Shown here: positions 117 through 24,906 of the stretch, piece by piece
Numbering within the stretch: the stretch's first letter is position 1
Layout: each line of letters opens with the position of its first letter
Source: an uncultured Methanobrevibacter sp.
Lineage (GTDB): Archaea > Methanobacteriota > Methanobacteria > Methanobacteriales > Methanobacteriaceae
Assembly (NCBI RefSeq): GCF_902764455.1
Contig: NZ_CACWVY010000016.1
Location: 1 to 64,000 of the forward strand
Reading direction: 5' to 3'
Length of the DNA: 64,000 bases
Notes under the pieces: generated by a model
What the model saw: only the letters and a program-made list of their open reading frames with translations
The model's database searches: none
Told to the model about the DNA's origin: nothing
Translations under genes and position numbers: made by a program

Positions 117-138
117 CTTTCAAAAACTTGCGTGATTT
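117..138 (+). repeat. Left terminal inverted repeat of the IS
   Basis: The reverse complement of this 22-mer matches 1445-1466 with a single g/a mismatch. The core is ctttcaaaaacttg. Confidence 0.75.
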
Positions 139-224
139 GAATTTTCACTAGTTTTTGAGTCACGAAATTTTTTCGTTCTAATTTTTCTTTATTTTTAATT
201 TAAAAGCAGTGAAATTAATATATA

Positions 225-1420
225 ATGTGGAACTTAAATATTAATATGTCTAGTAAAAATATTAAAGCTCCATATGAATGTATGGAGTTAAAAGAATATA
301 AACTTTCCGATTTTGTACCTGAGTTTTCTGAATTCCGTCAATTTGATGATCTTTCTCGATTTGGTTGTGAAAATATTGAGGATAATCTTATCAGATTGGA
401 AAAAAGAGGTAAATTCATTTTGAAAATAGAATTGCGGCCTGCCCATCATGTAAATCGCATCACACCGTTAAAAATGGAACTTATGAAAGAAAATTAATTT
501 TCTTAAGAATAGGGGAGCAAATTTGCACTATTCAAAAGTATAAAGGTAAGAAATGTGGCAAAGTCTTTTATTCTGATTTATCTTTACTTGTTTACCATAA
601 TTCTAACATTACCTTGCCAGTTATTGATTGTATTGAAAATTTATATCAAATCTATGGTGCCGGACTTCATAAAATACGTTTTGACTTAAAACAACAACAT
701 AACGTTGAAATCTCACATCAAAGCATAGAAAATATCATTTTGAACTCCAAATATGAATTTGACTATGATAATTGGTACTATTCTGGATATTACTTATTTT
801 ACAGCCTTCGGGCTAGAATTAATGAAGTATGGCAACATATTTTGGAATTATTCGATGTTAAATTAAATACTTTCGTTTCGACCAAATTGGTCAAATCAGA
901 GGATTCCAAGATCATTTATACTTTTTTAAACGAATCACTACGTAATCAGAAGAAAATATCAATTGGAACGGATTTAAAACAGGAATATCGATAAGCAATA
1001 GACAAATTAAAAGTAAAACATCATTTCTGTAAATTTCACGTAAAACAAGCAATAAACAAAAGATTTAAAGATTATTTTGACAAAAACCAAATAAATGAAG
1101 AAGAAATGGAAAAATTAATTGATTTAAAACAACACATTTTTAAAATATTGAATGCAAATAACTTTGATGAAGCAAAAAAATTACGTGATAAACTTATTGA
1201 TAAAAATTATCCAAAAAATAAGTTTACACACAAAATCGTGTGGAAATTCACCATTCCTTACTTTAAAAAATTAACGACACAGTTGAAAAATAAAAATATT
1301 TCATCCACAAACAATAAAATTGAAAATATCTTTCAAAAAGTATTTCCAGAACATATAAAAAGAACAATGAAAATAGAACAAGGACTTTCAAGCAGATTTA
1401 TGCTAAAATTAAATCATTGA
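225..1420 (+). pseudogene. Transposase pseudogene (frameshift plus nonsense codons)
   Basis: Three open stretches join into one transposase. The first part (225 to about 437) shifts frame near 435-440. The new frame then reads CPSCKSHHTVKNG, an N-terminal zinc-ribbon half, and continues through FLRIGEQ and IQKYKGKKCGKVFY, where the first Cys of the second CxxC is now Gly. It runs on into the body at 614-994. A TAA at 992-994 interrupts the frame, which continues directly as HHFCKFHVKQAINKRF and then to 1420. The TGA at 1418-1420 stands where related proteins would be expected to have Trp, and the same frame stays open to 1528, beyond the right inverted repeat. The C-terminal TNNKIEN...FPEHIKRT...GLSSR segment is typical of DDE transposases that carry a zinc ribbon. 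At least three inactivating lesions make it a pseudogene. Confidence 0.85.
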
Positions 1421-1444
1421 AACATAAATAATGAAAAAGAAAAA

Positions 1445-1466
1445 AAATCACACAAGTTTTTGAAAG
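1445..1466 (-). repeat. Right terminal inverted repeat of the IS
   Basis: Pairs with 117-138, with 21 of 22 positions complementary. It lies after the first stop of the transposase pseudogene. Confidence 0.75.
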
Positions 1467-1478: not shown

Positions 1479-1540
1479 CCCTATTGAAATTTAATCCAAA
1501 AGATAGTATAATAAATCAAATCAAGTAATCTTATAATAAA

Positions 1541-2407
1541 TTAGTTAGTTTCATAGTCGTTCAATTTATTTTCCAAAAATTCTATTCTTTCATTTAATTG
1601 ATCGATGTGATTTTTTAATTCAAAATAGTATAAATGAATGGCATAATGATTTAAAAAAGAATCATAAGATAATAAATTTTCTTCATTCTCGCATAAACTT
1701 ACTTCATTTGATTTATTCATAAAATCATACATTTCCAATGAAGACTCATTAATCTCATCAAAATGCTCTAAAAATCGGATGAATTTTACCTGTTTTTTAA
1801 ATAAAACATATTCTTCATTTAATTCATCCATATCTTTTACATTATTAAAATAATTTAAAAAAAATGGATAATAATCAAAAATGGTTTTAAATTCCAAATA
1901 TATCTCAAACATGTCTTTGTCATCAGATACAATTTCAAATTCATAAGGTTGGTCATGATAAATTAATTTATTTTCCTGAAAAATTAAGTTATCATTAATT
2001 TTAAAAGTAGTGAAATTTACATAAACAGGATATCTGATATTGTCTACATCCCTATAATCTACCCCCCTCAAATAGATTTTTAATGTACCCTTATTTACAC
2101 ATTGAACTTTTAAATTCAATTTTTTATCAGAACCCTCAATATGACAACCTTGACCATAATCATCTTTAAACCATGATGGAAAACGAATATGCAAATTATT
2201 GGGATTTTCGAATATGTTAACTCTATTAAAAGTGTTTCCTCTGTTTTTTAAATCAAATCTGCATAATTGCCAACAATCCTTTTGATAATTAATTAAGTTA
2301 ACGATTTCATTAAAATCATATCCCTTAGAAGAAAGCAACAATAATTCATCAATTTGTCTTTCAAATTCACTTAACATAATCATATTATCATTCAAATAAT
2401 CACCCAT
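1541..2407 (-). CDS. Hypothetical protein with one copy of the recurring WHD/NDG beta domain
   Basis: Function unknown. Residues about 47-176 are a diverged copy of the domain found twice in each of the proteins at 2497-4641 and 7863-9923. Preserved landmarks are CRFDLKN, PSWFKDDYGQG, CVNKGTLKI, RYPVYVNF and YHDQPY, where the other copies read WHD.PF. An N-terminal helical stretch precedes it, and the last 45 residues (NHIDQLNERIEFLENKLN) form a short coiled coil. There is no signal peptide or membrane segment, so it is probably cytoplasmic. It is the last gene of the minus-strand glycan operon, 89 bp after its neighbour, so a role in glycan synthesis or in binding the product is inferred. 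The start is uncertain: an ATG at 2407 is used, but a GGGTGAT just inside it could serve a TTG or ATG a few codons later. Confidence 0.7.
   Translation of the reverse strand: MGDYLNDNMIMLSEFERQIDELLLLSSKGYDFNEIVNLINYQKDCWQLCRFDLKNRGNTFNRVNIFENPNNLHIRFPSWFKDDYGQGCHIEGSDKKLNLKVQCVNKGTLKIYLRGVDYRDVDNIRYPVYVNFTTFKINDNLIFQENKLIYHDQPYEFEIVSDDKDMFEIYLEFKTIFDYYPFFLNYFNNVKDMDELNEEYVLFKKQVKFIRFLEHFDEINESSLEMYDFMNKSNEVSLCENEENLLSYDSFLNHYAIHLYYFELKNHIDQLNERIEFLENKLNDYETN
1880..2268 (-). other. Recurring beta domain, copy E (diverged, single)
   Basis: The fifth and most divergent copy of the domain. It keeps R.D.KN.G, P.WFKD..G.G, C.N.G.L, R.P.Y and HD.P, but lacks the NGQIIN motif near the end. Confidence 0.65.
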
Positions 2408-2496
2408 TAATCCATATCTTTAAATATATAACTTTTTATCTATATTAAAGTTATTATTTTTTTATTTGATGTTTAATATTGCGTGAAAAATCAACT

Positions 2497-4641
2497 TTAA
2501 CCTATGGAACTTAAGAGTTTAACTTTAAGATTGTTCAATTCTTTATTTTCACTATTTAACTTGTCGAGTTCATTTTTTAATTTATTTATTTCACCATCCT
2601 TTGAATTAATCCTCATGTTATCCTCCTGAATTAACGGTAAATTACTATTTTCACTTAATGGTTTCCATTCTGCTTGAATGTTGATAATTTGATTATTTTC
2701 AACTTCCATATTATAAACAAAAGGAGCATCATGCCAAACACTGATATTATCTTCAATGATATCAACATCATTAACTCGTATTTTAGTATAATCAATGAAA
2801 ATTGGGATTCTTTTATTATTCCTATCCTTAAAATCTATAGCTCTAAAATCAATATTTAAATTACCATCATTTATACATTTAAAAGAAATATTAATATTTC
2901 CAGAACTACTATTAACGACAGTCCCAACACCAAATTCATCTTTAAACCAAATAGGTTTATAAATATGGCTTAAAGAATCATCACAATCAACTAAAATTAA
3001 ATCATTATTTTCCTTTCCAACATTTTTAACATCAATGCGGGCTTCATAAAAATTATTTATTAATTTTTCATAATCCGTTTCTAAAAAAAGATTACTCTTA
3101 TAGTTAATTGGACCCCATCTAACTTTAATATTTATTATTTCCCCATCTTTAACATCTTTTTCGAAAATGAAAGGAGAATCATGCCAAGACACTTGGCTTT
3201 CCCCAACAATAACATTATTATTTACCAATATTTCATTATAATCAATATAAATTGGTATTCTGTTTCCAGTTTTATCTTTATAATCTATAGATTTGAATCC
3301 AATAACTAACCTGCCATCATTCACACATTTGAAAGATAAATTTAAATCACCTTTGACACTACTAATCACAGCCCCAATACCATTTTCATTCTTAAACCAA
3401 GAGGGTTGTGTGAATTTCAAACTAGAATCATTGGATTTTAACAGAACAATATCATTTGTTTCATTGCCATAATTTTTAATATCGATTCTTGATTCTAGAT
3501 ATTTAATTAAAAATTCAGCATTTTCATTGAAATATTGTGAATTTATTTCATTCTCAATATTTTTAGTTTCTTCATCGAAAGATACTTTATTATCAACTAT
3601 GAATCTATTAATTTTTATTAATTCGTTGAATGATGACTCTTGAAGGTCAGTACTTAGATTCATAAAATTGTTTTTAGAAAGATACTTGAGATAATCTCTT
3701 AATCGATTAATATCTACAAAATTACTATCCACAGATGATTCTTCAAAAAGGTATTTTTTTATTTCTAAATATTCATTTAGTTTAGAGTCCTGTGCTACGT
3801 TAATATAACTATAATCTTCCTGATTCAATTCAGAATTAGAGTCATCATTCAACATTTTATTGTTTAATTGATTTTCATTAATTATCTCCAATATTTTTTC
3901 AAAAGCATTAATATAAAATTCATCACAATAATTGACAAAACCTTTGCCCCATATATGATTTTCATTTACCCTAACATCTTTTGTACAATCAACAACAAGC
4001 ACATCATGATTTTTTTCTAAATAATTTTCCAGTACCCTTATTAAAGGATTATAGTTTTCTAATTCTCTTTGAAAAATTTCATCGATATAATAAGAACCAT
4101 CGTCTTTTAATACTTTAGAAGATAACTTAACTTTATTTAGAATAATTTTAACATTTGGAAAATTTTCATGAAAATAATCAAAAAAAACATCACAACTATT
4201 TCTCCATAAAATATAATACTCTAAGAAATTATGGTATAAAGTTAATTTATTTTTTTCATCAATTGTTTCATAAAATGCAGTATCAGGATAATCCCAAAAA
4301 TTGTTAGTGATATAAGTGTCATTTATTTTTATTACACCAAAGTAAGCTTCAAAAAATTCATCAATAATTAAATAATCAATATTTTCACCGATACTCCTAA
4401 TAAAATCTTTAGATAAATCATGCCTCAATCTCTCAGATCTAAATTTATTATTATCATTTAAAGGATAAATTTGAATATCTTTCTCATTAAATTCTATAGA
4501 ATGGTCAATATCCATTAAACTTATTAATGAAACCCTTTCTAATGAGGAAATAATTTCAAAATATTCATCATAATTATTAAACACTGAACGAAAAATATCC
4601 CTTGTAACACAAGAACCCAATATTCCTATTTTAATCTTCAT
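2497..4641 (-). CDS. DUF6270 (SGNH-like) protein with two recurring beta domains and a coiled coil
   Basis: The N-terminal ~255 residues resemble DUF6270, a family found in polysaccharide clusters and probably SGNH-hydrolase-like. GILGSCVTRDIF opens the protein, with a Ser in the place of the nucleophile, and DYLIIDEFFEAYFG, NKVKL and a late H/D-containing stretch follow. A helical linker leads to two copies of the WHD/NDG beta domain (about 379-512 and 530-662). The last 45 residues are a coiled coil (LKNELDKLNSENKELNNLK). No signal peptide is seen. The start at 4641 was chosen because GTGAGG lies six bases upstream of MKIKIG; an earlier in-frame codon at 4674 has no ribosome site. Glycan acylation or deacylation, or phosphate transfer, is possible, but the reaction is unknown. 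It lies fifth in the operon, behind four glycosyltransferases. Confidence 0.8.
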   Translation of the reverse strand: MKIKIGILGSCVTRDIFRSVFNNYDEYFEIISSLERVSLISLMDIDHSIEFNEKDIQIYPLNDNNKFRSERLRHDLSKDFIRSIGENIDYLIIDEFFEAYFGVIKINDTYITNNFWDYPDTAFYETIDEKNKLTLYHNFLEYYILWRNSCDVFFDYFHENFPNVKIILNKVKLSSKVLKDDGSYYIDEIFQRELENYNPLIRVLENYLEKNHDVLVVDCTKDVRVNENHIWGKGFVNYCDEFYINAFEKILEIINENQLNNKMLNDDSNSELNQEDYSYINVAQDSKLNEYLEIKKYLFEESSVDSNFVDINRLRDYLKYLSKNNFMNLSTDLQESSFNELIKINRFIVDNKVSFDEETKNIENEINSQYFNENAEFLIKYLESRIDIKNYGNETNDIVLLKSNDSSLKFTQPSWFKNENGIGAVISSVKGDLNLSFKCVNDGRLVIGFKSIDYKDKTGNRIPIYIDYNEILVNNNVIVGESQVSWHDSPFIFEKDVKDGEIINIKVRWGPINYKSNLFLETDYEKLINNFYEARIDVKNVGKENNDLILVDCDDSLSHIYKPIWFKDEFGVGTVVNSSSGNINISFKCINDGNLNIDFRAIDFKDRNNKRIPIFIDYTKIRVNDVDIIEDNISVWHDAPFVYNMEVENNQIINIQAEWKPLSENSNLPLIQEDNMRINSKDGEINKLKNELDKLNSENKELNNLKVKLLSSIG
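2655..3052 (-). other. Recurring beta domain, copy B
   Basis: The second copy in the DUF6270 protein. Landmarks are ARIDVKNVG, NNDLIL, WFKDEFGVG, CINDGNLNI, RIPIFIDY, VWHDAPF and INIQAEWKPL. It follows copy A after a short linker. Confidence 0.8.
3103..3505 (-). other. Recurring beta domain, copy A
   Basis: The first copy in the DUF6270 protein. Landmarks are SRIDIKNYG, TNDIVL, WFKNENGIG, CVNDGRLVI, RIPIYIDY, SWHDSPF and IINIKVRWGPI. Confidence 0.8.
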
Positions 4642-4782
4642 TTGATTCCTCACAATTACTGTATTTTGTACCATAATATAATCTATTAAACATGAAAAAA
4701 TTTTTCAATCCATGATATTATTAAAAAAATTAATTTACATAATACATATATATTTATCACAATTATAATTTATAAACATTCA

Positions 4783-5691
4783 TTAATATTTAATCAGATA
4801 ATCCATTATAAAGAAACCATATTCTTCTTCATCGAAATAATCTTTATAATTTTCAAATAAATTTTTTATAATTTTCTTAATTTCTTTATCGTGAATATTA
4901 TTTGAATAAACTAAATAATCTATGAATTCTATTTTATAGATAGAAAAAATTGAATTAAAATTATGCATTTTTAAAATATCAAAAATATCTTTAAAATGTT
5001 TTAGGTAAGCAAATTTTTTTTCATAATTATTGATTTTTTCATTAACACCCCCTCCCATGGAATGATTATACCCATATAAATCAAGAGATGTAGCAAAGAA
5101 TTCATTAAGATTTACTAAAACATTAACCATAAAAACCGGATCTTCACCAAATCGTAAATCCGGAAAAATAATGTTATTTTCTTCAAGAAAACTTCTTTTA
5201 AATAAATTTCTATAAAATGCAAAAGGAATACCATATTCTTCAGATTTAAAAATTTCTTTTTTATAAAAATATTTAAATCTTGAATTAAGAAAATCATAAT
5301 GAGTATCAATTGTATAATCTTGGTTAATCCATTTTAGATTAGCACAAACTAGATTAAAATCTTTTACTTTACCTAAATTATACATTGTTTCTAATGCATC
5401 AGCATCCAAAAAAATATCATCACTATCTAAAAATGCAATATATTCCCCTTGAGCATTTTTTATTCCCATATTTCTAGCCATTCCAGGACCCGAATTTTCT
5501 TGACAGATAATCTTAATATTTCCATATTTCTTATTTAAATCATTTAAAACATCTATTGAATCATCAGTTGATCCATCATCGACACAAATAATTTCAATGT
5601 CTTTTAATGTTTGTTTTTGAATACTCTCAATAGATTTATTTAAAAAATTAGAACTATTATAAACTGGCATTATTATTGATACAGCAACCAT
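4783..5691 (-). CDS. Family 2 glycosyltransferase
   Basis: A GT-A fold transferase that moves a sugar from a nucleotide donor onto a growing surface glycan. It has the SIIMPVYN start strand, the VDDGSTDDS nucleotide-binding loop, the NSGPGMARNMG stretch and the FLDSDD metal-binding DXD motif, all within the first ~110 residues. The rest is the variable acceptor half. No membrane anchor is seen. The start at 5691 (MVAVSIIMP) is preferred because an AGGGA lies upstream and family members start there. A codon at 5727 would add 12 residues with no ribosome site. It lies 29 bp or more downstream of the preceding transferase in one operon. The donor and acceptor cannot be told from sequence. Confidence 0.88.
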   Translation of the reverse strand: MVAVSIIMPVYNSSNFLNKSIESIQKQTLKDIEIICVDDGSTDDSIDVLNDLNKKYGNIKIICQENSGPGMARNMGIKNAQGEYIAFLDSDDIFLDADALETMYNLGKVKDFNLVCANLKWINQDYTIDTHYDFLNSRFKYFYKKEIFKSEEYGIPFAFYRNLFKRSFLEENNIIFPDLRFGEDPVFMVNVLVNLNEFFATSLDLYGYNHSMGGGVNEKINNYEKKFAYLKHFKDIFDILKMHNFNSIFSIYKIEFIDYLVYSNNIHDKEIKKIIKNLFENYKDYFDEEEYGFFIMDYLIKY

Positions 5692-5756
5692 TGAAATCCC
5701 TAAACCTACTTTTAATTTCTTAAACATTGATAAAGTTTACAAAGTACTTTATTACT

Positions 5757-6737
5757 TTACTTATTCTCCTCAAAATGTTGGAGCAATAATGGAGACATGA
5801 ATTTATAATATAAAACTTTAAAATTACTTATTAATTCACATCTAACCAAATTACTATCAACTTTTTTTAATACCTTTTGAATATAACAACAAGTTTCATA
5901 ATCTAATGAATATAAATCATTATCATTACTTTCAAGAATTATTTCAATATATCTGAATAATCTTTTATAAAAAAACAAAATAATATTCTCATCCTTAACT
6001 TTATTTTCTTCTAAAACATCATATATATCTAAAATTCTTTTCATGGGTAAAGTATTATCATTAAAATCATTTGTGGAGGAATTAGGATTTGTTATCCTAT
6101 AATAATAAACCTGTTTATCTAAATAAATTATCTTTTGAGCTTTTAAAGCAGTTTCATAAAAGAAAGGATTATCAACCCATCCTCCTTTAGGTACTTCTAA
6201 AAAAGTGATATTATTTTTTTCTAAAAATTCTCTTAAATAAATTCCCGCCCAAATAGAAGGATGGCCTTCAATGAATAAAGGTTGTTCTTTTAATATAAAT
6301 ACTTCATTTGGAATTAAAAAATTTTTAGCAGTATCTTTCACTAGTTCTACTTCATCACCATAATCATTTAAATAATAAAAATTAGCTTTAATAATATCAA
6401 CTGTATTATTTTGTGAAAACTCATATAAATCATTTAACATATTTTCATCAATATAATCATCAGTTTCAACAATACTAATGTAAATTCCTTTAGCTTCTTT
6501 TAATCCCAAATTAACCTGATGCCCATAACTTTTTTTATCAGAAGTTATAATTTTAATCCGTTTATCACTTTCTTGATGTTTTTTAATTATATCTAAAGTT
6601 TGGTCAGTAGATCCGGCATCCACACAAATTACTTCAATTTCTTTTAATGATTGGTTCAAAACACTAGAAAGACATTGTTCCATATAGTCTCCAACATTTA
6701 AAGAAGGCATTATGACTGAAATTTTAGGTTTTTCCAT
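5757..6737 (-). CDS. Family 2 glycosyltransferase (GHQVNLG subtype)
   Basis: A cytoplasmic GT-A glycosyltransferase. ISVIMPSLNVGDY opens the fold, VDAGSTDQT is the nucleotide loop, SYGHQVNLGL is the subtype signature, and VETDDYID holds the DXD-like metal site. Residues around GGWVDNPFFYETAL and YYYRITNPNSS form the acceptor half typical of this subtype, and the same signatures occur in the larger enzyme at 7863-9923. A GTGAT four bases before the ATG supports the start. It is the third gene of the minus-strand operon, and its substrate is unknown. Confidence 0.88.
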   Translation of the reverse strand: MEKPKISVIMPSLNVGDYMEQCLSSVLNQSLKEIEVICVDAGSTDQTLDIIKKHQESDKRIKIITSDKKSYGHQVNLGLKEAKGIYISIVETDDYIDENMLNDLYEFSQNNTVDIIKANFYYLNDYGDEVELVKDTAKNFLIPNEVFILKEQPLFIEGHPSIWAGIYLREFLEKNNITFLEVPKGGWVDNPFFYETALKAQKIIYLDKQVYYYRITNPNSSTNDFNDNTLPMKRILDIYDVLEENKVKDENIILFFYKRLFRYIEIILESNDNDLYSLDYETCCYIQKVLKKVDSNLVRCELISNFKVLYYKFMSPLLLQHFEENK

Positions 6738-6784
6738 TTATATCACTTTGTAATTAAAATTTCTATAAATTTAACCAATATTTA

Positions 6785-7828
6785 TTAATTATGTACTGAT
6801 TTTAAAAAAGCTTTTCGATTAATAATATTATTAAATTCAGTTGTAATAAATAAATTTTTCCTAAGTAAATAAAATTCATAAATATTTTCACTAATCAATA
6901 TTTGTTCAAAAATTTTTCTATTAAAATCTGACAAAAATTCAATTGATTCATCTTCAAATTCCCCACTTAAAAATGTATCTATTAAATCATTTCTAAAAAT
7001 ATTAAAGAAATTTTCTTTATAATCTTCTTTAATTCTACTGTATTCCCTCATAAAAAAACTAAGTTTCAATTCTAAAAAATAATGTTTATAAACAGCAAAT
7101 TCATTAATTTCACTAAACTTTTTTAATATTAAGTCATATTCTTTAAAAATATTTCCAATTTTGATTTCATCTCTTTTTAAAAATTCAAATGGTTTTTTAT
7201 AATCAAATAAAAATTCTTGCACATATGAAATTTTATCAGCAGACAATAATGAGTTATAAAAAAACAAATATTCCGGGTATTTTAAATCTTCAGAAAACTT
7301 TAATTCCCCATTTTTTATAAACTTTAATCTGTAAAATTTATTTTCTAAAGAGGGATCAATTGAGAATATTAAATTATTTAACTCTTTATAATTAAAAACT
7401 TGATTACTGATATTTTGTTGAATTTGATATATTGAATCTGATTTATTATAATACATATTTTCATATTGATAATTTACATCTGTAAAAATAATATCTGATT
7501 CAGTTTTTTCAGCGTGATTATAAAGAATATCCAGGGCATTAAATTTTAAAAAGGTTGAAGGTTTCATGATATAAATATATTTTCCATCAACAAAACTCAT
7601 TGCTTTATTCATTGCTTTAGAAAATCCCATATATTTAATAGATACGAATCTAATACGTGCATCTTTTTTCGAATATGAATCTAATATTTCCAAAGAATCA
7701 TCATCAGATTCATCATCAATACAAAATATTTCAAAATCAGAAAAAGTTTGATTAATGAGACTATGTAATGATTCTTTTAGAAAATTTTCACAATTATGAA
7801 CATATAATAATATAGATATTTCAACCAT
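6785..7828 (-). CDS. Family 2 glycosyltransferase-like protein lacking the DXD motif
   Basis: The GT-A fold is clear from EISILLYVHNCENFL, the CIDDESDDDS loop and FSKAMNKAM. Where active relatives have a DSDD-type metal site, this protein reads YIYIMKPSTF, so no DXD is visible. It may be an inactive partner subunit, or it may work without metal. The C-terminal two thirds are helical and rich in Lys, Asn and Phe. The start at 7828 is supported by a strong AAAGGTGAT just upstream; an alternative seven codons earlier lacks such a site. It lies 34 bp after the preceding gene in the operon. Confidence 0.78.
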   Translation of the reverse strand: MVEISILLYVHNCENFLKESLHSLINQTFSDFEIFCIDDESDDDSLEILDSYSKKDARIRFVSIKYMGFSKAMNKAMSFVDGKYIYIMKPSTFLKFNALDILYNHAEKTESDIIFTDVNYQYENMYYNKSDSIYQIQQNISNQVFNYKELNNLIFSIDPSLENKFYRLKFIKNGELKFSEDLKYPEYLFFYNSLLSADKISYVQEFLFDYKKPFEFLKRDEIKIGNIFKEYDLILKKFSEINEFAVYKHYFLELKLSFFMREYSRIKEDYKENFFNIFRNDLIDTFLSGEFEDESIEFLSDFNRKIFEQILISENIYEFYLLRKNLFITTEFNNIINRKAFLKSVHN

Positions 7829-7862
7829 CAAATCACCTTTATTAAACAATTTTTAGAACATG

Positions 7863-9923
7863 TTAAGAAATATTCTTTAATAATTTATCATTAAATTCTT
7901 TTAGTTCATTATTTTTAATAGTCAAATCTTCAATTTCTTTTTTTAATTTTTTTACTTCAATGTCTTTAAACTCAAGAGTGTTACTTAAATGCGCCCATTT
8001 TAATTTAATATTAATAATTTGCCCATTTTTTACCATTTTATCATAAAATAATGGCCTATCATGCCATACAACAACATTATCATCAATAATAGATTCACCA
8101 TCAATTTTTATATCTTGATACTCAATAAAAATAGGAATTCTATCACAAGTTTTATTCCTTAAATCGGTTGATCTAAAATTAAGTTTTAAATGTCCATCGT
8201 TTATGCATTCAAATGATAAATCTAAAATCCCCTTGTTACTTGTTAAAATTGAACCTACTCCCAAATTATCATTAAACCATTCTGGTTTAGAAACATCATA
8301 TAAACCACTAGATTTAAGGAACCTTATATCATTATTAGATTCTCCTTCATTTTTAATATCTATGCGGCAATTTGTCAATATGTTTAAAAGCCTTTCATAA
8401 TCTGTAATGAATTTAAACATGCTATTAACATTGAGTGGTTTCCATTTGACTTGAACATTAATAATTTGTCCATTTAGAACCTTTTTTTGGAAATTAAATG
8501 GATTGTCGTGCCAAGATACTCTACTTCCAGAAACTAAAATTTCATCATCAATAATTATTTCTGTATAATCAATATAAATTGGAATTCTATAACCCTTCCG
8601 ATCTGCATAATCTATTCCTCTAAAATCAAAGTTTATTGTTCCATCATTTACACATTTGAAAGATAATTCCAAACTACCAGTATTACTTTCCAGCACATGA
8701 CCTACTCCAATATCATTGTTAAACCAATCAGGAGCATAAAAATTCTGTAAAGGGTCAGTAGTCTCTATTAAAATAATATCATTGTCATTCGAACCTAAAT
8801 TTTTAATATCTATGCGACATTGCAAATATTTCTTTAAAAATTCATAATGTTTAGAATCAATATTATATTTGAAGTCATAATATTCATTAGGCCTTTCAAT
8901 AATCCAATTTAATATATTCAAATCATATTCATTAAGTAAAGAAGTATCTAACTCATTATTGTTTTTCATTAAATTAAACTGTTCAGACGTGCTTAACAAA
9001 AACTCTTTTTTAAATTCCAAACCAATTCTATCCATTGTGAAATGAAAATTGTGATATTTAGCATAAACAAATGCATCTAAAAAATCTTTTTTTATGCCTT
9101 CATCATCTAAAAAATTATTGATTAAATCATATTCAACATCCATAGCATAAATTTTAGTCTTATTACTTATAGAAGAATTAGGGTTGTCTTGTCTGTACAT
9201 ATAAAAAGCTTCTGGTATAAACATAACCTTTTCCCCATGGAAAAATGTTTTAAACCAAAAACCATTATCCTGATAAGATGCCCCGGGTGTTTCGGAATGG
9301 CGAATATTGTTTTTTCTCAAGAAATCAATATTATATAAACCAGTCCAAGTATTCATAAGAAGAGTATACATTTTATGATTTTCACGTGTGGAAAAAATTT
9401 TATTATAAAATTCTCCACTACAATCTATTTTTTGATACTCTTTAAGTATATTAGTATTATCTTCACCATAAAACTGATAAAAATCACTTTTAACAAAATC
9501 TAAATCATTTTTTTTAGCAACTGCATATAAAGTTTCAAACATTTTTGGTAAAATAAAATCATCACTTTCAACTATTGCAAAATATTCACCTGATGCCATG
9601 TCCATCCCCAAATTCATAGTATGGCCATATCCTGCATTATCTTTATTGATAATTTTTATCCTCTTATCTTTAGTTGCATATTCTTTTAGTATATCTAATG
9701 AAGAATCCGTAGAACCATCATTCACACATATAACTTCAAATTCTTTAAATGTTTGATTAAGAATACTATCTAAACATGCTCCAATATAATCTTCAACATT
9801 AAAAATAGGCACTACAACAGAAATTTTTATATTGCCCACATTCTCTTCAAAATTTATCAATTGATGTATTGTTACTTTATCATAGGTTTTCTTTTTTTCT
9901 TTCTCATAATCACCATATTTCAT
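7863..9923 (-). CDS. Family 2 glycosyltransferase with two recurring beta domains and a coiled coil
   Basis: The first gene of the minus-strand operon. The GT-A domain (about 30-290) has ISVVVPIFNVEDY, VNDGSTDSS, AGYGHTMNLG and VESDD. The acceptor region with YQDNGFWFKTFFHG and MYRQDNPNSS matches the enzyme at 5757-6737. Two copies of the WHD/NDG beta domain follow (about 364-497 and 515-646), then a C-terminal coiled coil (about 650-686). The architecture after the catalytic domain parallels that of the DUF6270 protein, so the beta domains are probably accessory, perhaps binding glycan. The start at 9923 has GGTG six bases upstream, whereas an in-frame codon at 9932 has none. No signal peptide is seen. 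Confidence 0.85.
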   Translation of the reverse strand: MKYGDYEKEKKKTYDKVTIHQLINFEENVGNIKISVVVPIFNVEDYIGACLDSILNQTFKEFEVICVNDGSTDSSLDILKEYATKDKRIKIINKDNAGYGHTMNLGMDMASGEYFAIVESDDFILPKMFETLYAVAKKNDLDFVKSDFYQFYGEDNTNILKEYQKIDCSGEFYNKIFSTRENHKMYTLLMNTWTGLYNIDFLRKNNIRHSETPGASYQDNGFWFKTFFHGEKVMFIPEAFYMYRQDNPNSSISNKTKIYAMDVEYDLINNFLDDEGIKKDFLDAFVYAKYHNFHFTMDRIGLEFKKEFLLSTSEQFNLMKNNNELDTSLLNEYDLNILNWIIERPNEYYDFKYNIDSKHYEFLKKYLQCRIDIKNLGSNDNDIILIETTDPLQNFYAPDWFNNDIGVGHVLESNTGSLELSFKCVNDGTINFDFRGIDYADRKGYRIPIYIDYTEIIIDDEILVSGSRVSWHDNPFNFQKKVLNGQIINVQVKWKPLNVNSMFKFITDYERLLNILTNCRIDIKNEGESNNDIRFLKSSGLYDVSKPEWFNDNLGVGSILTSNKGILDLSFECINDGHLKLNFRSTDLRNKTCDRIPIFIEYQDIKIDGESIIDDNVVVWHDRPLFYDKMVKNGQIINIKLKWAHLSNTLEFKDIEVKKLKKEIEDLTIKNNELKEFNDKLLKNIS
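7986..8381 (-). other. Recurring beta domain, copy D
   Basis: The second copy in the large glycosyltransferase. Landmarks are CRIDIKNEG, NNDIRF, WFNDNLGVG, CINDGHLKL, RIPIFIEY, VWHDRPL and NGQIINIKLKW. Confidence 0.8.
8434..8833 (-). other. Recurring beta domain, copy C
   Basis: The first copy in the large glycosyltransferase. Landmarks are CRIDIKNLG, DNDIILI, WFNNDIGVG, CVNDGTINF, RIPIYIDY, SWHDNPF and NGQIINVQVKWKPL. It ends just before copy D starts. Confidence 0.8.
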
Positions 9924-10187
9924 GAAAAGCACCGAAAATATTTAAACATAAAATATCTAATTAATAATTAATTTTAAGGTTTATCCTTTTTATTATAAAT
10001 TTATATGTATTTAATATAATATAAATTGTACATAAAATTCGAATATGATTTATATAGGATTTAATAATCACTTGAAATTTAAACATTTCCTAAAATAAGC
10101 AAATTCTTAATTAACACACAATTTTAATAATAATTTTATATATTTTAAAATAAATATAATTATTAATTAAAAAGTATAGGTTTTCCC
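9924..10187. promoter_or_regulatory. Divergent intergenic region between the two glycan clusters
   Basis: 264 bp of very AT-rich DNA separates the minus-strand operon (first gene 7863-9923) from the plus-strand cluster starting at 10188. Promoters for both directions must lie here. TATA-like runs occur at about 10001-10030 and at 10135-10143 (ttttatata). The latter is suitably placed upstream of 10188. No clear inverted repeat or operator was recognised. Confidence 0.55.
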
Positions 10188-17426: not shown

Positions 17427-20400
17427 ATGTATAAAATATCGGTTATCATCCCTGTTTATAACGTTGAAGATTATCTTAGAGAATGTTTAGATAGTATATG
17501 TAATCAGACATTAACTGATATTGAAATTTTATGTATTAATGACGGATCCACTGACAATTCTTTAAAAATCCTTGAGGAATACTCACAAAATGATTCAAGA
17601 GTTAAAATCATCACAAAAGAAAATGGAGGCCAAGCAACTGCACGTAATTTAGGAATCCTTGAAGCTCAAGGAGACTACATTAGTTTTATTGATTCGGATG
17701 ATTTTATTGAACCAGATATGCTTGAAAAACTATACTCAAAAGCAAAAGAGAATAATTTAGATATTGCCATGTGTAAAATAGCTACATATGACAATCAGAC
17801 TGGCGAAATTAAAGATAATGTCTGGTATTATATGCTTGGCGTTTTTAGAGACTTTGAAAAAGATATATTCAACCATGAAGACACCAAAGAGTTTACCTGC
17901 AATATTGCAGTTACTCCTTATAATAAGATTTATAAAACATCACGGATTAAGGACAATAACATTTTATTTCCGGAAGGACTTATTTTTGAAGATGAAAAGT
18001 TCTTTTTTGATGTTTACTTAAGAGCCAAGAGAGTTTCAATAGTTGATGAATTCTTATATTATTATAGAGTTAACAGAAAAGGATCTACTGTCGATATTGC
18101 AAAGGAAAACGACTACACAGACCTCCTGCCAATATCTAAACAAATCAGAGATACATTCAAACAAACTAACAATTACGAAAACTACAAACACTTACTGAAT
18201 AATCGTTTAATACACTTGCAACTGGCAAGATTTACCCAAACTTCACCAAAATACAAAGAAAAATTCTTTAAATTAATGAAAGAGGATTTAACTGAAGTTT
18301 TAAAAGATAAAGAAATTGAAGATAACCTGGAAAGTGATGTAAAATTCAGAGTTGAAAAAATCATTAAATCCAAAAATTATGAAGAATTTAAAAAATTAGA
18401 CCAAAATAAACTATTTTCAGTCGTTATTGCATGTTACAATACTGGAAAATATTTAGAAGAATGCATAAACTCATTAATTGGACAGAGTTTTTCATTCGGA
18501 AGCAATATTCAATTAATTTTAGTGGATGACGGCAGCACAGACAATACCCGAGAAATCTGTGAAAAATATCTAAATTTATATCCTGACAATATTATTTATT
18601 TATATCAGGAAAATCAAGGTCAAGGATCTGCAAGAAACCTTGGTTTAGAGCATGCGAATGGAAAATACATCAATTTCCTTGACAGCGATGACAAATTCAG
18701 TGGAAACACATTTTATAAGATTTATGAGTTTTTTGAACTACATTACAATGAAATAGATTTTGTTTCAACCAGAATGTTTTTCTTTGACAAATACGAAGGC
18801 CAACACCCCCTAAATTATAAATTTGAAGAAGAAAAAATCATTGATTTAACTGAAAATTGGGACTTTCCGCAACTTTCAGCATCTTCAGCATTTTTTAAAA
18901 GAGAACTGTTTGACAACTACAGATTCCCGGAAAGTTTAGTTAATTCAGAAGATACATTAATGCTTAATAAAATGCTTTTGGAAAACCCAAAGTATGGCGT
19001 TGTAACAGAAGCAATCTACTGGTATCGAAGAAGAAGTGACGAGTCATCAACAATAGACTCATCCTCAACAAAAAAAGAATTTTACATAAATCGTTTAGAA
19101 AATTATTTTAAAGCGCTGATTGATGCATCAATTGAGAAATATGGTAAAGTTGTCAAATTCATACAATATCTCATTGTTTATGATATACAATGGATGTTCA
19201 GTGTGGAAAATATTTCAGAAATCCTAACAAATGATGAAATTGAAGAAGTTTATATATCTATTCAAGAAGTTTTGTCCCATTTAGATGACAACATTATTTT
19301 ATCTTTAAGAAACGACAAATTAAACATTAAACATCACATGTTAGCTACAAAATATGCAGTCGTTAATGTTGGTATTAATGGAGTTGTAACTTACGAAAAT
19401 ATTCATTCAAAATTTAATGGTGAATTTGCAGGAGTATACTCAGGAGATATAATTGTAGACAAACTAAATAATCATAAAATTTGGTTGGATATTGTTGAAA
19501 TAAAACATGATAAATTGTTTATTTCAGGATTTTTAATGTCTTTTTTTGAAGACAAAGACATTGAAATTGAAATACTTAAAACCAACAAAAAAACAATAAA
19601 AACAAAAACTTTCGTTGCTAAAAGAGTCTACTATAAAAACACTTCCAAATGTTTTTTAGGCTGTTCATTGGAATCACAGTATAATTTTGATTTTGAAATT
19701 CCTCTTGAAAACAATGAAAATTCAACTATTAAAATATATGCTCGATTTACAGGGGAAAATTCATCAGAATTCACCGCTGAAAAATTACCAATCGATTTTT
19801 CAAATCATGCAAGATTATCACAGTTAAGCAATTACAGCATAAATAAGAGTCACTTTCTCAAATTTAAAGATAACAAATTCCATATCTTAAAATATAATTA
19901 TCTGAAAATGATTAAATCTGAAATTCCAATTTTACTTAGAATATTTAAAAGAAAAGAATCATTTTATACATCAATTATAGGATTTAGATTAATCTATTTG
20001 GCATTATATCCATTTTATAAGAATAAAAAAATCTGGATGTTTATGGACAGAAGAGAAAATGCTGATGATAATGCCGAGCATTTATACAAATATGCAATAG
20101 CTCAAAATGACAATATCGAGAAATATTTCACCGTTAATGAAGATTCAAATGATTTTAAAAGATTGCAAGGATTAAAAAATCTCATTCCATTCTATTCATT
20201 TAAACAAAGAATAAAATATCTGTTTGCAGAAAAAATCATATCATCACATCCTGACGAAAACATATTAAACCCGTTTTTCAATAAAAATGAAACTTCTTAT
20301 GCCGGATTAATTAACTCGGATAAAATATTTTTACAGCATGGTGTTACTAAAGACAATGTTTCATCATGGCTTCATAAGTATGATAAAAATGTAAGTCTGA

Positions 20401-21086
20401 TTACAACAGTTTCAGATGCTGAAAAGGAGTCTTTTCTTGATTTTGGTTATAATTATGATGAAAATACAATCCAGACATTAGGTTTTGCCAGATTTGATAA
20501 TCTTCCTAAAAAAGACAAAATATCCAAACAAATCATAATCATGCCATCATGGAGAGACGATTTATATGATATGACTCCGAATTACATTAAAGAGTCAAAA
20601 TACTTCAAACACATAAATTCGTTAATAAACAACAAAGAATTAATTAGAATATGCAAAAAACACAACTATAAAATTATATTCAAACCACACCCATTAGTTT
20701 ACGAATTTATTGATTTGTTTGACACAAATGATTATGTCGAAATTGATAAATCAAGTACATATCAGGAGCTGTTTAGAAATTCTGACTTGTTAATTACCGA
20801 TTTCTCATCAGTGGCTTTTGATTTTTCTTATATGAAAAAGCCAATAATTTACTATCAATATGCGAAGGATTACAACTTTGAAGAGGGTTATTTCAAATAC
20901 AAAACCATGGGTTTTGGAGAAGTTATTGAAAAAGAAAACAACTTGATACAATTAATCAAGGAATATATTGAAAATGATTGCGAAATGAAAGAGATCTACA
21001 AAAATAGAGTAGATACTTTTTATAAATATAATGACAAAAATAATTGTAAGCGAATTTATGATTACATTTTAAATATGGAATATTAA
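17427..21086 (+). CDS. Giant polymerase-like protein: two GT2 domains plus a TagF-like CDP-glycerol phosphotransferase domain
   Basis: A 1219-residue multidomain enzyme. GT-A domain 1 (1-~325) has SVIIPVYNVEDY, INDGSTDNS, NGGQATARNLG and FIDSDD. GT-A domain 2 (~329-620) has SVVIACYNTGKY, VDDGSTDNT, GQGSARNLG and FLDSDD. A beta-rich linker spans ~650-820. The C-terminal domain (~865-1219) matches the CDP-glycerol glycerophosphotransferase family: DNAEHLYKYA, FLQHGVTKDN, TVSDAEKE, FKPHP (the conserved His) and LITDFSSVAFDFSYMKKPIIYYQ. It probably builds a phosphate-linked polymer with alternating sugars at the cytoplasmic face. It is a close relative of the protein at 22186-24906, which lacks the first GT domain. 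Whether CDP-glycerol, CDP-ribitol or another donor is used cannot be seen. Confidence 0.88.
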   Translation: MYKISVIIPVYNVEDYLRECLDSICNQTLTDIEILCINDGSTDNSLKILEEYSQNDSRVKIITKENGGQATARNLGILEAQGDYISFIDSDDFIEPDMLEKLYSKAKENNLDIAMCKIATYDNQTGEIKDNVWYYMLGVFRDFEKDIFNHEDTKEFTCNIAVTPYNKIYKTSRIKDNNILFPEGLIFEDEKFFFDVYLRAKRVSIVDEFLYYYRVNRKGSTVDIAKENDYTDLLPISKQIRDTFKQTNNYENYKHLLNNRLIHLQLARFTQTSPKYKEKFFKLMKEDLTEVLKDKEIEDNLESDVKFRVEKIIKSKNYEEFKKLDQNKLFSVVIACYNTGKYLEECINSLIGQSFSFGSNIQLILVDDGSTDNTREICEKYLNLYPDNIIYLYQENQGQGSARNLGLEHANGKYINFLDSDDKFSGNTFYKIYEFFELHYNEIDFVSTRMFFFDKYEGQHPLNYKFEEEKIIDLTENWDFPQLSASSAFFKRELFDNYRFPESLVNSEDTLMLNKMLLENPKYGVVTEAIYWYRRRSDESSTIDSSSTKKEFYINRLENYFKALIDASIEKYGKVVKFIQYLIVYDIQWMFSVENISEILTNDEIEEVYISIQEVLSHLDDNIILSLRNDKLNIKHHMLATKYAVVNVGINGVVTYENIHSKFNGEFAGVYSGDIIVDKLNNHKIWLDIVEIKHDKLFISGFLMSFFEDKDIEIEILKTNKKTIKTKTFVAKRVYYKNTSKCFLGCSLESQYNFDFEIPLENNENSTIKIYARFTGENSSEFTAEKLPIDFSNHARLSQLSNYSINKSHFLKFKDNKFHILKYNYLKMIKSEIPILLRIFKRKESFYTSIIGFRLIYLALYPFYKNKKIWMFMDRRENADDNAEHLYKYAIAQNDNIEKYFTVNEDSNDFKRLQGLKNLIPFYSFKQRIKYLFAEKIISSHPDENILNPFFNKNETSYAGLINSDKIFLQHGVTKDNVSSWLHKYDKNVSLITTVSDAEKESFLDFGYNYDENTIQTLGFARFDNLPKKDKISKQIIIMPSWRDDLYDMTPNYIKESKYFKHINSLINNKELIRICKKHNYKIIFKPHPLVYEFIDLFDTNDYVEIDKSSTYQELFRNSDLLITDFSSVAFDFSYMKKPIIYYQYAKDYNFEEGYFKYKTMGFGEVIEKENNLIQLIKEYIENDCEMKEIYKNRVDTFYKYNDKNNCKRIYDYILNMEY

Positions 21087-21098
21087 ACCGGGTATTTT

Positions 21099-22172
21099 AT
21101 GAGTTTTAAAGAAAAAATTTTATCGAACAGTAATTCGTATTCTTATTACAAGGAAGAAACTGAAAGATTGAATGATGTAAATGAGAGATTAAGCAAGGAA
21201 ATTGAATCACTTAAAAAAGAAATTTCAGATTTGAGAAATGCTAAAAAATCAGGCCTAAAAGAGAATTACTACGACATTTACGGTAATGCAGGAAGTTTCT
21301 GCAACTGGTCTTACATTGAAAAATATTTGGATGACAATTTTGAAGATGAGCTTAAAAAAACTACTGAACACATGAGTTATCAAAATAAAAAAGATTTTAA
21401 ATTATATTTTTTAAGGGCAATGGCTTCAGCAATGATATGCTGGGATTCCCTTTATTTTGAACAGGAAGAAAAGGATCAGAAAAAATTCACTGAATTTAAA
21501 ATTAACAATTCAAAACCCGGTGAAATTGCAGGATATAAATTTGAAGGAGATTACAATCTACACCCATTTATCAATTTGAATTTGAATAATCAGGACAGAG
21601 AATTTCTCAAAAATAAAGACATAATCGATGCAGGAGCATTTACCGGAGATACCTCACTTCCATTATCAAAGATTACAGATAAGAATGTCTATGCATTTGA
21701 ACCATTCGAAGAATCATTTGAATTGCTTAAAAAAAATATATCTGCAAATAACATTGAAAACATTATTCCAGTGAATAAATCCTTAGGAAACATTAATGGA
21801 GAAAGAACACTGTTTTTATCGGGCGTTAATGTTCAAGGAATTACAAGTGATCCGAATATCCGAAATTATGATAACGAAATTAAAGTTCAGGAAATAACTG
21901 TTGATAAATTTGTTGAAGAGAATAGTTTGAATGTTGGTTTGATTACTGTTGATATTGAAGGAGCGGAAATGGATTTACTTGAAGGTGCAGTAAATACTCT
22001 CAAAACCCAAAAACCTATCTTAGAAATAAGTATCTATCATAAAATTTCAGATTTCTTCGATATAATTCCATGGATTGCGAATTTAAATTTAGATTATGAC
22101 TTTAAAATTGTTAAAGAACAACCATGGTCATTTGTAGTCGATACAATTGTACAATGTAGGCCTAAAAATTAG
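21099..22172 (+). CDS. FkbM-family methyltransferase with N-terminal coiled coil
   Basis: A class I SAM methyltransferase of the FkbM type, usually O-methylating sugars in surface glycans. Residues about 15-50 are a coiled coil (RLSKEIESLKKEISDLRN). The SAM loop IIDAGAFTGDTSLPLS starts near residue 172, VYAFEPFEESFELLKKN follows, and TVDIEGAEMDLLEGA is the FkbM signature. It starts 12 bp after the stop of the giant polymerase, with GGGT upstream, and its end lies 13 bp before the chosen start of the next gene, so the three are probably one operon. Confidence 0.88.
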   Translation: MSFKEKILSNSNSYSYYKEETERLNDVNERLSKEIESLKKEISDLRNAKKSGLKENYYDIYGNAGSFCNWSYIEKYLDDNFEDELKKTTEHMSYQNKKDFKLYFLRAMASAMICWDSLYFEQEEKDQKKFTEFKINNSKPGEIAGYKFEGDYNLHPFINLNLNNQDREFLKNKDIIDAGAFTGDTSLPLSKITDKNVYAFEPFEESFELLKKNISANNIENIIPVNKSLGNINGERTLFLSGVNVQGITSDPNIRNYDNEIKVQEITVDKFVEENSLNVGLITVDIEGAEMDLLEGAVNTLKTQKPILEISIYHKISDFFDIIPWIANLNLDYDFKIVKEQPWSFVVDTIVQCRPKN

Positions 22173-22185
22173 ATTTAATGATAAT

Positions 22186-24906
22186 ATGAATGAAAATTGG
22201 AAAAATAAAGTTTTTAAATTTGCTGTTGTGATGGCAATATATAATACAGAAGACTTTTTAGAAGAGGCAATCGATTCTGTTATTAATCAAACTTTGGATT
22301 TTGAAGAAAATATCCAAATGATTCTTGTTGATGACGGAAGCGTTGATGATTCTTTAAGAATATGTGAAGAATATAAAGAGAAATATCCAGATAACTTTGT
22401 TGTAATCTCACAGGAAAACAGCGGGCAGGCAACAGCCAGAAATAACGGTTTAGAATATGTCAATGCAAGATATGTTAATTTCATGGACAGCGATGATTAT
22501 TTTTCTGAAGAAACATTTGAAAATGTATACCGATTTTTCATATACCATGACAAAGAAACAGACATTGTTTCTGTTCCAATTAAATTTTTTGGAAGAATCA
22601 ACTGGAATCATCAATTGAACTTTAAGTTTTATGACAATAAAGTACTTGACTTAACCAAAGAACCATACAATCCACAATATCATTCGAACAGCGCATTTTT
22701 TAAAAGAGATGCTTTGAAAGATATTCGCTTTCCAACTGATGTGCTTCCATCCGAAGACGCTATTTTAATCAATAAAATACTTTTAGAGAAAAAAGCTTTG
22801 GGCGTTGTAAAAGACGGATGTTATTATTACCGAAAAAGAAACGATGAAACTTCTACACTGGATTTGACTCATGACCAAATTACATTTTTCACCCCACGGC
22901 TTAAAAAGTACTTTTTAAGATTAATTAATTATTCATTAGACAAATATGGCGAAATTCCTAAATTTTTAGAATTTACAATAGCTCATGATTTATACTGGCT
23001 ATTCAATCAACCGGAAGCATTTTCACAAGATAAAAAGGAAATGGAAGAATTTTATTATTATTTACATAAAATAATCAGTTTTCTTTCAAAAGAAACCATT
23101 GAAAAGTTATACATTGAAGAAAATATTAAAAAATATTTTTTATATCTGAAAAATGGTGAAAAACATATTGAAATTCATGACGGCTTAGTTTCACTAATGA
23201 CCGGAGAAAAGGAAATCGATAGAATCAATTACCACAAACTTTGGTTGGATATTGCTAAAATTAACGGAGATAAATTAAACATCGTCGGGTCATACATGGG
23301 ATTGATTGACAATAAATATTTGTCAATTGAAGCTATTAATAAGCTTTCCGATGGTAGCGTAACTCATACAATAGCTGAGAGAAAATATTACCCTTCAAGA
23401 GATGGAATTACATATTTATCCTGCAGATGGCAATATGCATTTAATTTTGATGTAAACATTCCTATCAATAGAAATCTGGAAAATACCATAGATATTCGCA
23501 TTAATTTCCATAAAGATGGAGACAACACTAATTTCAGTGAAGACAATGTTATCCCAATAACATTGGAAATGGAATTCCAGAATTGGGGAGATTTATACAA
23601 ATTCAGCAATTATGCAGTAGTGGATTCAAATATCCTATTATTTAACAACAATCAATTTAAAATTAAGAAATATTCCTTGAAAAACCGATTGAAACATGAA
23701 TATCACTGTCTTAAAAAGATTAATGAGTTTAAATTACCGGAATACAAACACATCATCCATTTAAGATTAATTTATAATTTAATATATCCAATCATGAAAT
23801 TTAGAACTAAAAACAAACCAATATACCTGTTTGTGGATAGAAAAGACAGCGGTCAGGACAACGCCGAGGCATTATGGGATTATGCTTTAAGTCAAAATGA
23901 CAATATAAGGAAATATTTTGTTGTTGATAAAAATTGCGATGATTTCAAAAGACTATCCAAGAAAGGTAAAGTTATGGACTTCGGATCATTCAAACATAAA
24001 TTATATTATTTATTTGCAGATAAACTGATTTCATCACATCCCGAAGATGATACAATCAATCCATATTTCTCAAAACAATACGGCCATGATTTAAGGCGTA
24101 TGATTTGCGGTTTATGCACTCTTGATAAAATTTTCCTGCAGCATGGAGTGACACAAAATAATCTATCACCATGGCTGACTAAATTTGATAAAAACATAAG
24201 ATATTTCCTAACCGTGTCTGATTTGGAAGAAGAGTACTTGACTGATGTTTTAGCATATGAAAATGAGATATACCATACATTAGGTTTTCCAAGATTCGAT
24301 AATTTGAAAAGCACTTCTTCAAAGAGGATACTATTATGCCCCACTTGGAGATTTAATTTAATTGGAAATAGCTTAAATCACAAAAACATGTTTTTAAGCT
24401 CAGATTATTATAACGATTTAAACAATTTATTTAAGAGTCAGGAACTGAACAACATATTTGAAAAATACGGATATAAATTAATTTTCAAACCACATCCCCG
24501 TTTAAATGACGTCATAACTGAAAGTGGTGAAAAGTATCTGGACTTTTTTGAATTTGGAGAGCATATTGAAATTGCAGATGATGAAACATATAATTCTCTC
24601 TTAAATAGCTGTGATTTAATGATAACAGATTACTCATCCATAGCATTTGATTTTGCATATTTAGATAAACCAATTCTTTATTACCAACCTAATGACGACA
24701 TTCCACATGAAATAGGTTATTTCAAAATCGATGAAATGGGTTTTGGAGATGTAGTATATGAACTGGATGATTTAATAGGAAAAATCGAGGAGAATATAAA
24801 AGACAACTGTAAAAACAAAAGCAAATATACAGACAGAATAAATAACTTTTTCAAATATCATGATAAAAACAATTGTAAGAGAGTTTATGAAGACATTAAA
24901 GGGTGA
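22186..24906 (+). CDS. GT2 plus TagF-like CDP-glycerol phosphotransferase fusion
   Basis: A 906-residue paralogue of the protein at 17427-21086 with only one GT-A domain (1-~300; VVMAIYNTEDF, VDDGSVDDS, SGQATARNNG, FMDSDD). It then has the same beta-rich linker (~360-500) and a TagF-like domain (~540-906; DNAEALWDYA, FLQHGVTQNN, TVSDLEEEY, FKPHP, MITDYSSIAFDFAYLDKPILYYQ). It probably makes or extends a phosphate-containing glycan together with its paralogue. The start at 22186 lies just after the FkbM stop; an in-frame codon at 22147 would overlap that gene by 26 bp and is less likely. Its TGA overlaps the start region of the next gene. Confidence 0.87.
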   Translation: MNENWKNKVFKFAVVMAIYNTEDFLEEAIDSVINQTLDFEENIQMILVDDGSVDDSLRICEEYKEKYPDNFVVISQENSGQATARNNGLEYVNARYVNFMDSDDYFSEETFENVYRFFIYHDKETDIVSVPIKFFGRINWNHQLNFKFYDNKVLDLTKEPYNPQYHSNSAFFKRDALKDIRFPTDVLPSEDAILINKILLEKKALGVVKDGCYYYRKRNDETSTLDLTHDQITFFTPRLKKYFLRLINYSLDKYGEIPKFLEFTIAHDLYWLFNQPEAFSQDKKEMEEFYYYLHKIISFLSKETIEKLYIEENIKKYFLYLKNGEKHIEIHDGLVSLMTGEKEIDRINYHKLWLDIAKINGDKLNIVGSYMGLIDNKYLSIEAINKLSDGSVTHTIAERKYYPSRDGITYLSCRWQYAFNFDVNIPINRNLENTIDIRINFHKDGDNTNFSEDNVIPITLEMEFQNWGDLYKFSNYAVVDSNILLFNNNQFKIKKYSLKNRLKHEYHCLKKINEFKLPEYKHIIHLRLIYNLIYPIMKFRTKNKPIYLFVDRKDSGQDNAEALWDYALSQNDNIRKYFVVDKNCDDFKRLSKKGKVMDFGSFKHKLYYLFADKLISSHPEDDTINPYFSKQYGHDLRRMICGLCTLDKIFLQHGVTQNNLSPWLTKFDKNIRYFLTVSDLEEEYLTDVLAYENEIYHTLGFPRFDNLKSTSSKRILLCPTWRFNLIGNSLNHKNMFLSSDYYNDLNNLFKSQELNNIFEKYGYKLIFKPHPRLNDVITESGEKYLDFFEFGEHIEIADDETYNSLLNSCDLMITDYSSIAFDFAYLDKPILYYQPNDDIPHEIGYFKIDEMGFGDVVYELDDLIGKIEENIKDNCKNKSKYTDRINNFFKYHDKNNCKRVYEDIKG

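Follow-up and report, generated by a model that had tools for sequence, protein, structure and literature searches.

The glycosyltransferase family 2 (GT2) enzyme TarS of Staphylococcus aureus carries trimerising tandem CBM-like domains at its C-terminus (PMC5156392). A similar arrangement is found in the locus described here, where tandem beta domains (as predicted) lie C-terminal to a GT2 part in what is plausibly a cytosolic pathway to a surface polymer of the sugar-phosphate type. The gene cluster of the window (the whole analysed stretch of 64,000 nucleotides from an uncultured Methanobrevibacter sp.) also resembles the TarS system in having CDP-glycerol glycerophosphotransferase domains. 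In contrast to the Ig-like and starch-binding-like domains of TarS, the domain of the present study occurs on at least seven kinds of enzymes, and TarS structures are absent among the 50 best fold matches of its models.

Another related system is Wzt, in which the carbohydrate-binding domain Wzt_C is part of O-antigen ABC transporters (PMC9445017, PMC11231755). The domain studied here is likewise a beta-sandwich of comparable size (as predicted) that would act on the cytosolic side of glycan export, and two of the domain proteins contain an ABC ATPase. However, it resides mainly on biosynthetic enzymes, precedes the ATPase in these two proteins (loci L106 and L107) instead of following it, and elsewhere accompanies enzymes that are not ATPases. 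Wzt_C (PF14524) was rejected as a homologue, since none of the 42 scanned members of the domain family matches it in Pfam. In the genomes of 200 archaeal relatives Wzt_C exceeds its cut-off in only 2, in long proteins. The third case is ORF6, the O7 OPS terminator of Klebsiella pneumoniae, with a predicted uncharacterised CBM-like domain beside a coiled coil (PMC11231755). A CBM-like fold next to a coiled coil within a glycan-assembly enzyme is the common feature, but the ORF6 domain is described in that paper as immunoglobulin-like and belongs to one enzyme type.

As in the CBM class, the domain is a discrete folding unit (predicted) on carbohydrate-active enzymes (GT2, GT10 and LicD). This kind of module is known; new are the uncatalogued domain family itself and the unusually wide range of enzymes on which it is used. 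We propose, with a confidence evenly balanced between acceptance and doubt, that it is an accessory glycan-recognition module which holds assembly enzymes on the nascent surface glycan prior to export.

Domain copies in the window and their predicted fold

The minus strand holds six genes between positions 1541 and 9932 (Table 1), and three of them code for domain-bearing proteins: the 288-aa protein, the 725-aa DUF6270 protein and the 689-aa GT2 protein. The five copies of the domain are ~137 residues long (range 135–139) and share 27–52% identity in pairwise blastp comparisons (E from 1e-21 to 1e-53), a similarity far above chance. The sequence-only reading had put five copies at the same places, with borders within a few codons of the refined ones, and the motifs that it listed (R(I/F/V)D(I/V/L)KN.G etc.) are present in the window as described. 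The DUF6270 part of the 725-aa protein matches Pfam PF19786 (E=4.2e-27, residues 18–245) and the GT2 part of the 689-aa protein matches PF00535 (E=1.9e-34, residues 38–187). The genes of these two proteins are separated by three domain-free GT2 genes of the same strand. The dN/dS ratio of the window copies versus those of relatives is mostly 0.14–0.32 (one pair 0.60), thus the copies are constrained coding sequence. The G+C content of the domain-bearing genes (1540–9941) is 23.7% versus 33.1% in the region 31000–64000.

Table 1. Features of the window, with their strand and supporting data
Feature	Position	Strand	Description and support
Probable degenerate insertion element	117–1466	.	Inverted repeats; small plus-strand ORFs
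Gene of 288-aa protein	1541–2407	-	D1 and helical/coiled-coil linker; domain-LicD protein without the LicD catalytic half
Copy D1	1871–2275	-	blastp versus other copies, E 1e-21 to 1e-26; AlphaFold2 pLDDT 94.7, pTM 0.88
Gene of 725-aa protein	2497–4674	-	DUF6270, D2, D3 and C-terminal coiled coil
Copy D3	2641–3057	-	blastp, motifs
Copy D2	3091–3501	-	blastp, motifs; dN/dS 0.14 and 0.22 versus relatives
Three GT2 genes without the domain	4783–7849	-	Pfam PF00535, E 3e-35, 4e-28 and 6e-23
Gene of 689-aa protein	7863–9932	-	GT2, D4, D5 and C-terminal coiled coil
Copy D5	7971–8378	-	blastp, motifs
Copy D4	8418–8828	-	blastp, motifs; AlphaFold2 pLDDT 94.3, pTM 0.87

Scans of the window proteins and the 42 family members against Pfam-A and NCBIfam gave no match of the domain above a curated cut-off; the best values of single members (E 0.001–0.02) are isolated and differ between members. 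PHROGs yielded no consistent family (best E=0.0081, and no single family was matched by more than 2 of the 42 members), and profile searches of PDB sequences with the domain gave matches at E≥0.1 only. The earlier reading, which recognised no named family, therefore holds for the 42-member scans of Pfam, NCBIfam and PHROGs, and a profile match to a described domain, named beforehand as the finding that would speak against novelty, did not appear. In the literature searched neither a description of this domain module nor the name DUF6270 was found. PA14 (PF07691) as a sequence family was rejected, with no Pfam match among the 42 members and a negative profile–profile comparison with eight archaeal PA14 segments, a limited test given the small PA14 alignment. 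As judged from these comparisons, the domain is a new family, assigned to none of the catalogued ones. Its way of working is presumably CBM-like.

The AlphaFold2 models of D4 and of D1, made with 25 family sequences, each comprise a single compact beta unit of 9–10 strands. Both models are confident (Table 1) and have the same strand order, so one independent all-beta unit is predicted, in agreement with the independent beta folding unit proposed previously. A model other than one independent unit was the second outcome that had been named beforehand as refuting, and it did not occur either. A Foldseek search of both models against PDB gave no match at E≤0.001, with TM-scores below 0.45, and no match at E≤0.001 was obtained among viral structure models. 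The weak best PDB matches of both models include PA14, CBM35 and the GH31 enzyme 2xvk, which bears a PA14 insert, with unrelated proteins intermixed; CBM4 is among the weak matches of the D1 model. The PA14-fold matches (2xvk with E=0.01, prob 0.96 and TM 0.36; 5j6y with E=0.02 and TM 0.19) are among the best for two independent models but are not significant. The models support a jelly-roll-like fold as a class; family membership is not assigned because of the low TM-scores and the intermixed unrelated proteins. The presence of sugar-binding jelly rolls among the weak matches of two models favors glycan recognition, and the lack of any match at the above threshold disfavors it.

Partner enzymes and distribution of the domain

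The survey of partners covered 58 fetched stretches together with the window; the 82 reading frames with the domain contain 97 copies, of which 96 are distinct and score above 90 bits. Clustering of the non-domain remainder of these proteins divides the frames into asparagine-synthase-like (27), GT2 (15, one unconfirmed), DUF6270 (8), LicD (7), GT10 (6), alpha/beta-hydrolase-like (6) and SAM methyltransferase (PF13578; 4) groups. The other 9 frames have no assigned partner, are cut by a contig end or stand alone. Pfam supports LicD (1.7e-25), GT10 (9.7e-6, above cut-off), the methyltransferase (2.4e-10), an ABC ATPase (8.5e-21) and GT2, as well as DUF6270 in 7 members. Two labels are tentative: "alpha/beta-hydrolase-like" is based on sub-threshold Pfam matches, and "asparagine-synthase-like" on the SGGFDSR motif with sub-threshold Pfam matches in 4 of 26 members. 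The asparagine-synthase-like bearers (e.g. L060:5630–7930 and L071:2062–4542), with their conserved SGGFDSR, are the commonest partner. No relative of this partner was found in PDB at E≤0.1, and the family is itself poorly described.

A sixth copy was found in the same genome on another contig (C44), on an alpha/beta-hydrolase-like protein. Hence the family is not limited to the window operon: the proposal that the copies are common to partners of glycan gene clusters stands, and their restriction to one operon does not. The domain is present in 34 of 152 Methanobacteriota genomes, all from one family and four genera (Methanobrevibacter, Methanosphaera and kin), and a sample of 297 archaeal genomes added no further genome. 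A scan of the genome-contig collection detected six loci from named Methanobrevibacter and Methanosphaera; it used strict patterns, so that the lack of bacterial matches there is weak evidence. The domain is absent at one Collinsella and one Butyrivibrio locus, both reached via the GT2 part. Viral origin was rejected, with no relatives in viral contigs, phages or viral structures (E≤0.001), and none was found in plasmids; one set of the plasmid, phage and viral-contig searches used a hand-written consensus as the query.

At least seven unrelated families of partners carry the domain, at either terminus: most bearers have it at the C-terminus, and LicD, GT10 and part of the DUF6270 proteins at the N-terminus. 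Such placement is typical of recruiting modules and favors a recruiting role. DUF6270, LicD and GT2 proteins also occur domain-free nearby or in the genome (a domain-free GT2 gene is found within the stretch fetched in 36 of the 58 other loci). As the partner families exist without it, the domain is an optional add-on outside the catalytic fold. Only 6 of the 82 frames contain a segment that exceeds a loose hydrophobicity threshold, from which the bearers appear to be cytosolic. In ten bearers (in L060, L061, L071, L074, L077, L080, L090, L093, L095 and L099) a coiled-coil-like stretch leads into an S-W-K-x-T-like motif at the C-terminus; this tail is perhaps membrane-associating.

Tandem copies are common (two in the window GT2 and DUF6270 proteins, up to four in L064), many bearers have a coiled coil, and 14 of the 34 genomes contain a single matched copy. 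All this would fit self-association, i.e. a module through which its own enzyme dimerises or trimerises and which binds no sugar by itself. Stacked CBM-like domains do form the trimerisation interface of TarS (PMC5156392), and since such domains may oligomerise, this explanation is retained as an unlikely but serious one. With a recruiter it is nevertheless easier to understand that the domain sits at either terminus and accompanies catalytic domains that differ greatly in size.

It is also conceivable, albeit quite improbable, that the domain docks on a common protein or membrane partner (e.g. an export ATPase or a scaffold) and so builds a glycan-synthesis complex, the bound partner being a protein and not a glycan. 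Several bearers may be encoded at one locus (five in L077, four in L080, three in the window), and in L106:3406–6519 and L107:4041–7148, from two genomes, an asparagine-synthase-like part, the domain, a coiled coil and an ABC ATPase are united in one frame. Moreover, bacteria use coiled-coil scaffolds to put together complexes of this kind for O-antigen synthesis (PMC11231755). However, a domain-free ABC ATPase is found within the stretch fetched in only 7 of the 58 other loci, and the genomes with one copy indicate that domain–domain contacts between enzymes are not the general rule.

Conserved residues and possible role

Over the 96 copies (Neff 77) the most conserved positions are R5 (95%), D7 (97%), N10 (95%), N16 (92%), W35 (90%), G41 (96%), G63 (99%) and W129 (88%). 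Arg5, Asp7, Asn10, Asn16, Trp35, Gly63 and Trp129 are nearly invariant; the polar and aromatic ones among them are common to all types of partners. On strand 1, I6 and I8 lie between R5, D7 and K9, so that the latter three probably point to one face. The Trp-His-Asp triad, formerly considered invariant, is not: D1 has YHD, and over the 96 copies Trp106 is conserved at 41%, His107 at 78% and Asp108 at 63%, which led us to reject it as a family signature. The conserved residues common to the partners suggest a shared ligand or a shared protein partner. They are polar or aromatic, which again favors the recruiting role; retention of R5, D7, N10 and N16 across seven unrelated partners goes beyond the usual demands of an oligomerisation interface.

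In the tree, 70 of the 96 copies have a nearest neighbour on the same kind of partner, and 4 have one from their own locus. Copies with different partners are no closer within a locus (mean 2.16) than between loci (2.20), and a smaller distance (1.96) separates copies that share the partner but not the locus. Grouping by partner means that the domain was passed on largely with its enzyme and was not tuned to the polymer of the cluster. Recognition of a cluster-specific glycan thus has no support from the tree, and a ligand common to all clusters, or a non-glycan role, fits it. Passive inheritance through gene duplications predicts the same grouping, and the domain might then be a structural spacer with no binding function. 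This is very improbable in view of the low dN/dS and the strong conservation of polar residues at such Neff, and transfer between unrelated enzyme families points to a selected function.

We therefore return to glycan recognition, which is favored by the precedents of TarS, Wzt and the O-antigen terminator and by the two ABC ATPase fusions. The carbohydrate-binding or product-tethering function suggested in the earlier reading is likewise a proposal. The ligand of this independently folding cytosolic module would be the same for all bearers, and would belong to the surface glycan while this is still growing on its membrane anchor, or to the lipid-linked base. By binding it the module would recruit unrelated enzymes that build or decorate the glycan ahead of export, namely glycosyltransferases, LicD phosphotransferases, the methyltransferase, DUF6270, alpha/beta-hydrolase-like and asparagine-synthase-like proteins. 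The observed base of this explanation consists of repeated copies, many partner types, glycosyltransferase-rich clusters, shared polar and aromatic residues and the predicted fold; the glycan nature of the ligand, its identity for all partners and recruitment as the effect are what we infer.

More tentatively, and with doubt outweighing confidence, the domain may be a lineage-restricted address tag of gut Methanobacteriaceae on a conserved lipid-linked glycan element, gathering at least seven enzyme families and, in some species, the ABC export ATPase. A common address tag, if true, would extend the idea of a CBM on a synthesis enzyme beyond individual examples (TarS, Wzt) to an entire pathway. 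There are few descriptions of the enzymes with which gut methanogens build their archaeal surface polysaccharides. Many of these enzymes carry the uncatalogued module, a single profile annotating at least 82 frames in 34 genomes, and this profile is a handle for finding partners in glycan assembly.

The shortened LicD fusion and the neighbouring cluster

The earlier reading assigned the domain to a glycosyltransferase, a DUF6270 protein and a small protein. The first two attachments are correct, but the "small" 288-aa protein is a domain-LicD protein from which the LicD part is missing: it shares 56% identity over 277 aa with the N-terminal half of a 599-aa domain-LicD fusion, and the LicD catalytic part was looked for in the window and found absent. 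The LicD half was probably lost. Beside the shortened gene, at the very beginning of the contig (the window starts at contig base 1), there are inverted repeats of 22 nt with 95% complementarity (arms 117–138 and 1445–1466). The small plus-strand ORFs between them have no Pfam match, and the region is probably a degenerate insertion element. The loss of LicD is possibly linked to this neighbouring element.

The adjacent plus-strand cluster encodes UDP-galactopyranose mutase, methyltransferases and GT2 proteins with CDP-glycerol glycerophosphotransferase domains; with this content, a sugar-phosphate polymer is plausible. Two large fusions of GT2 with CDP-glycerol glycerophosphotransferase, located at 17427–24906 of the window, represent teichoic-acid-type chemistry in an archaeon.
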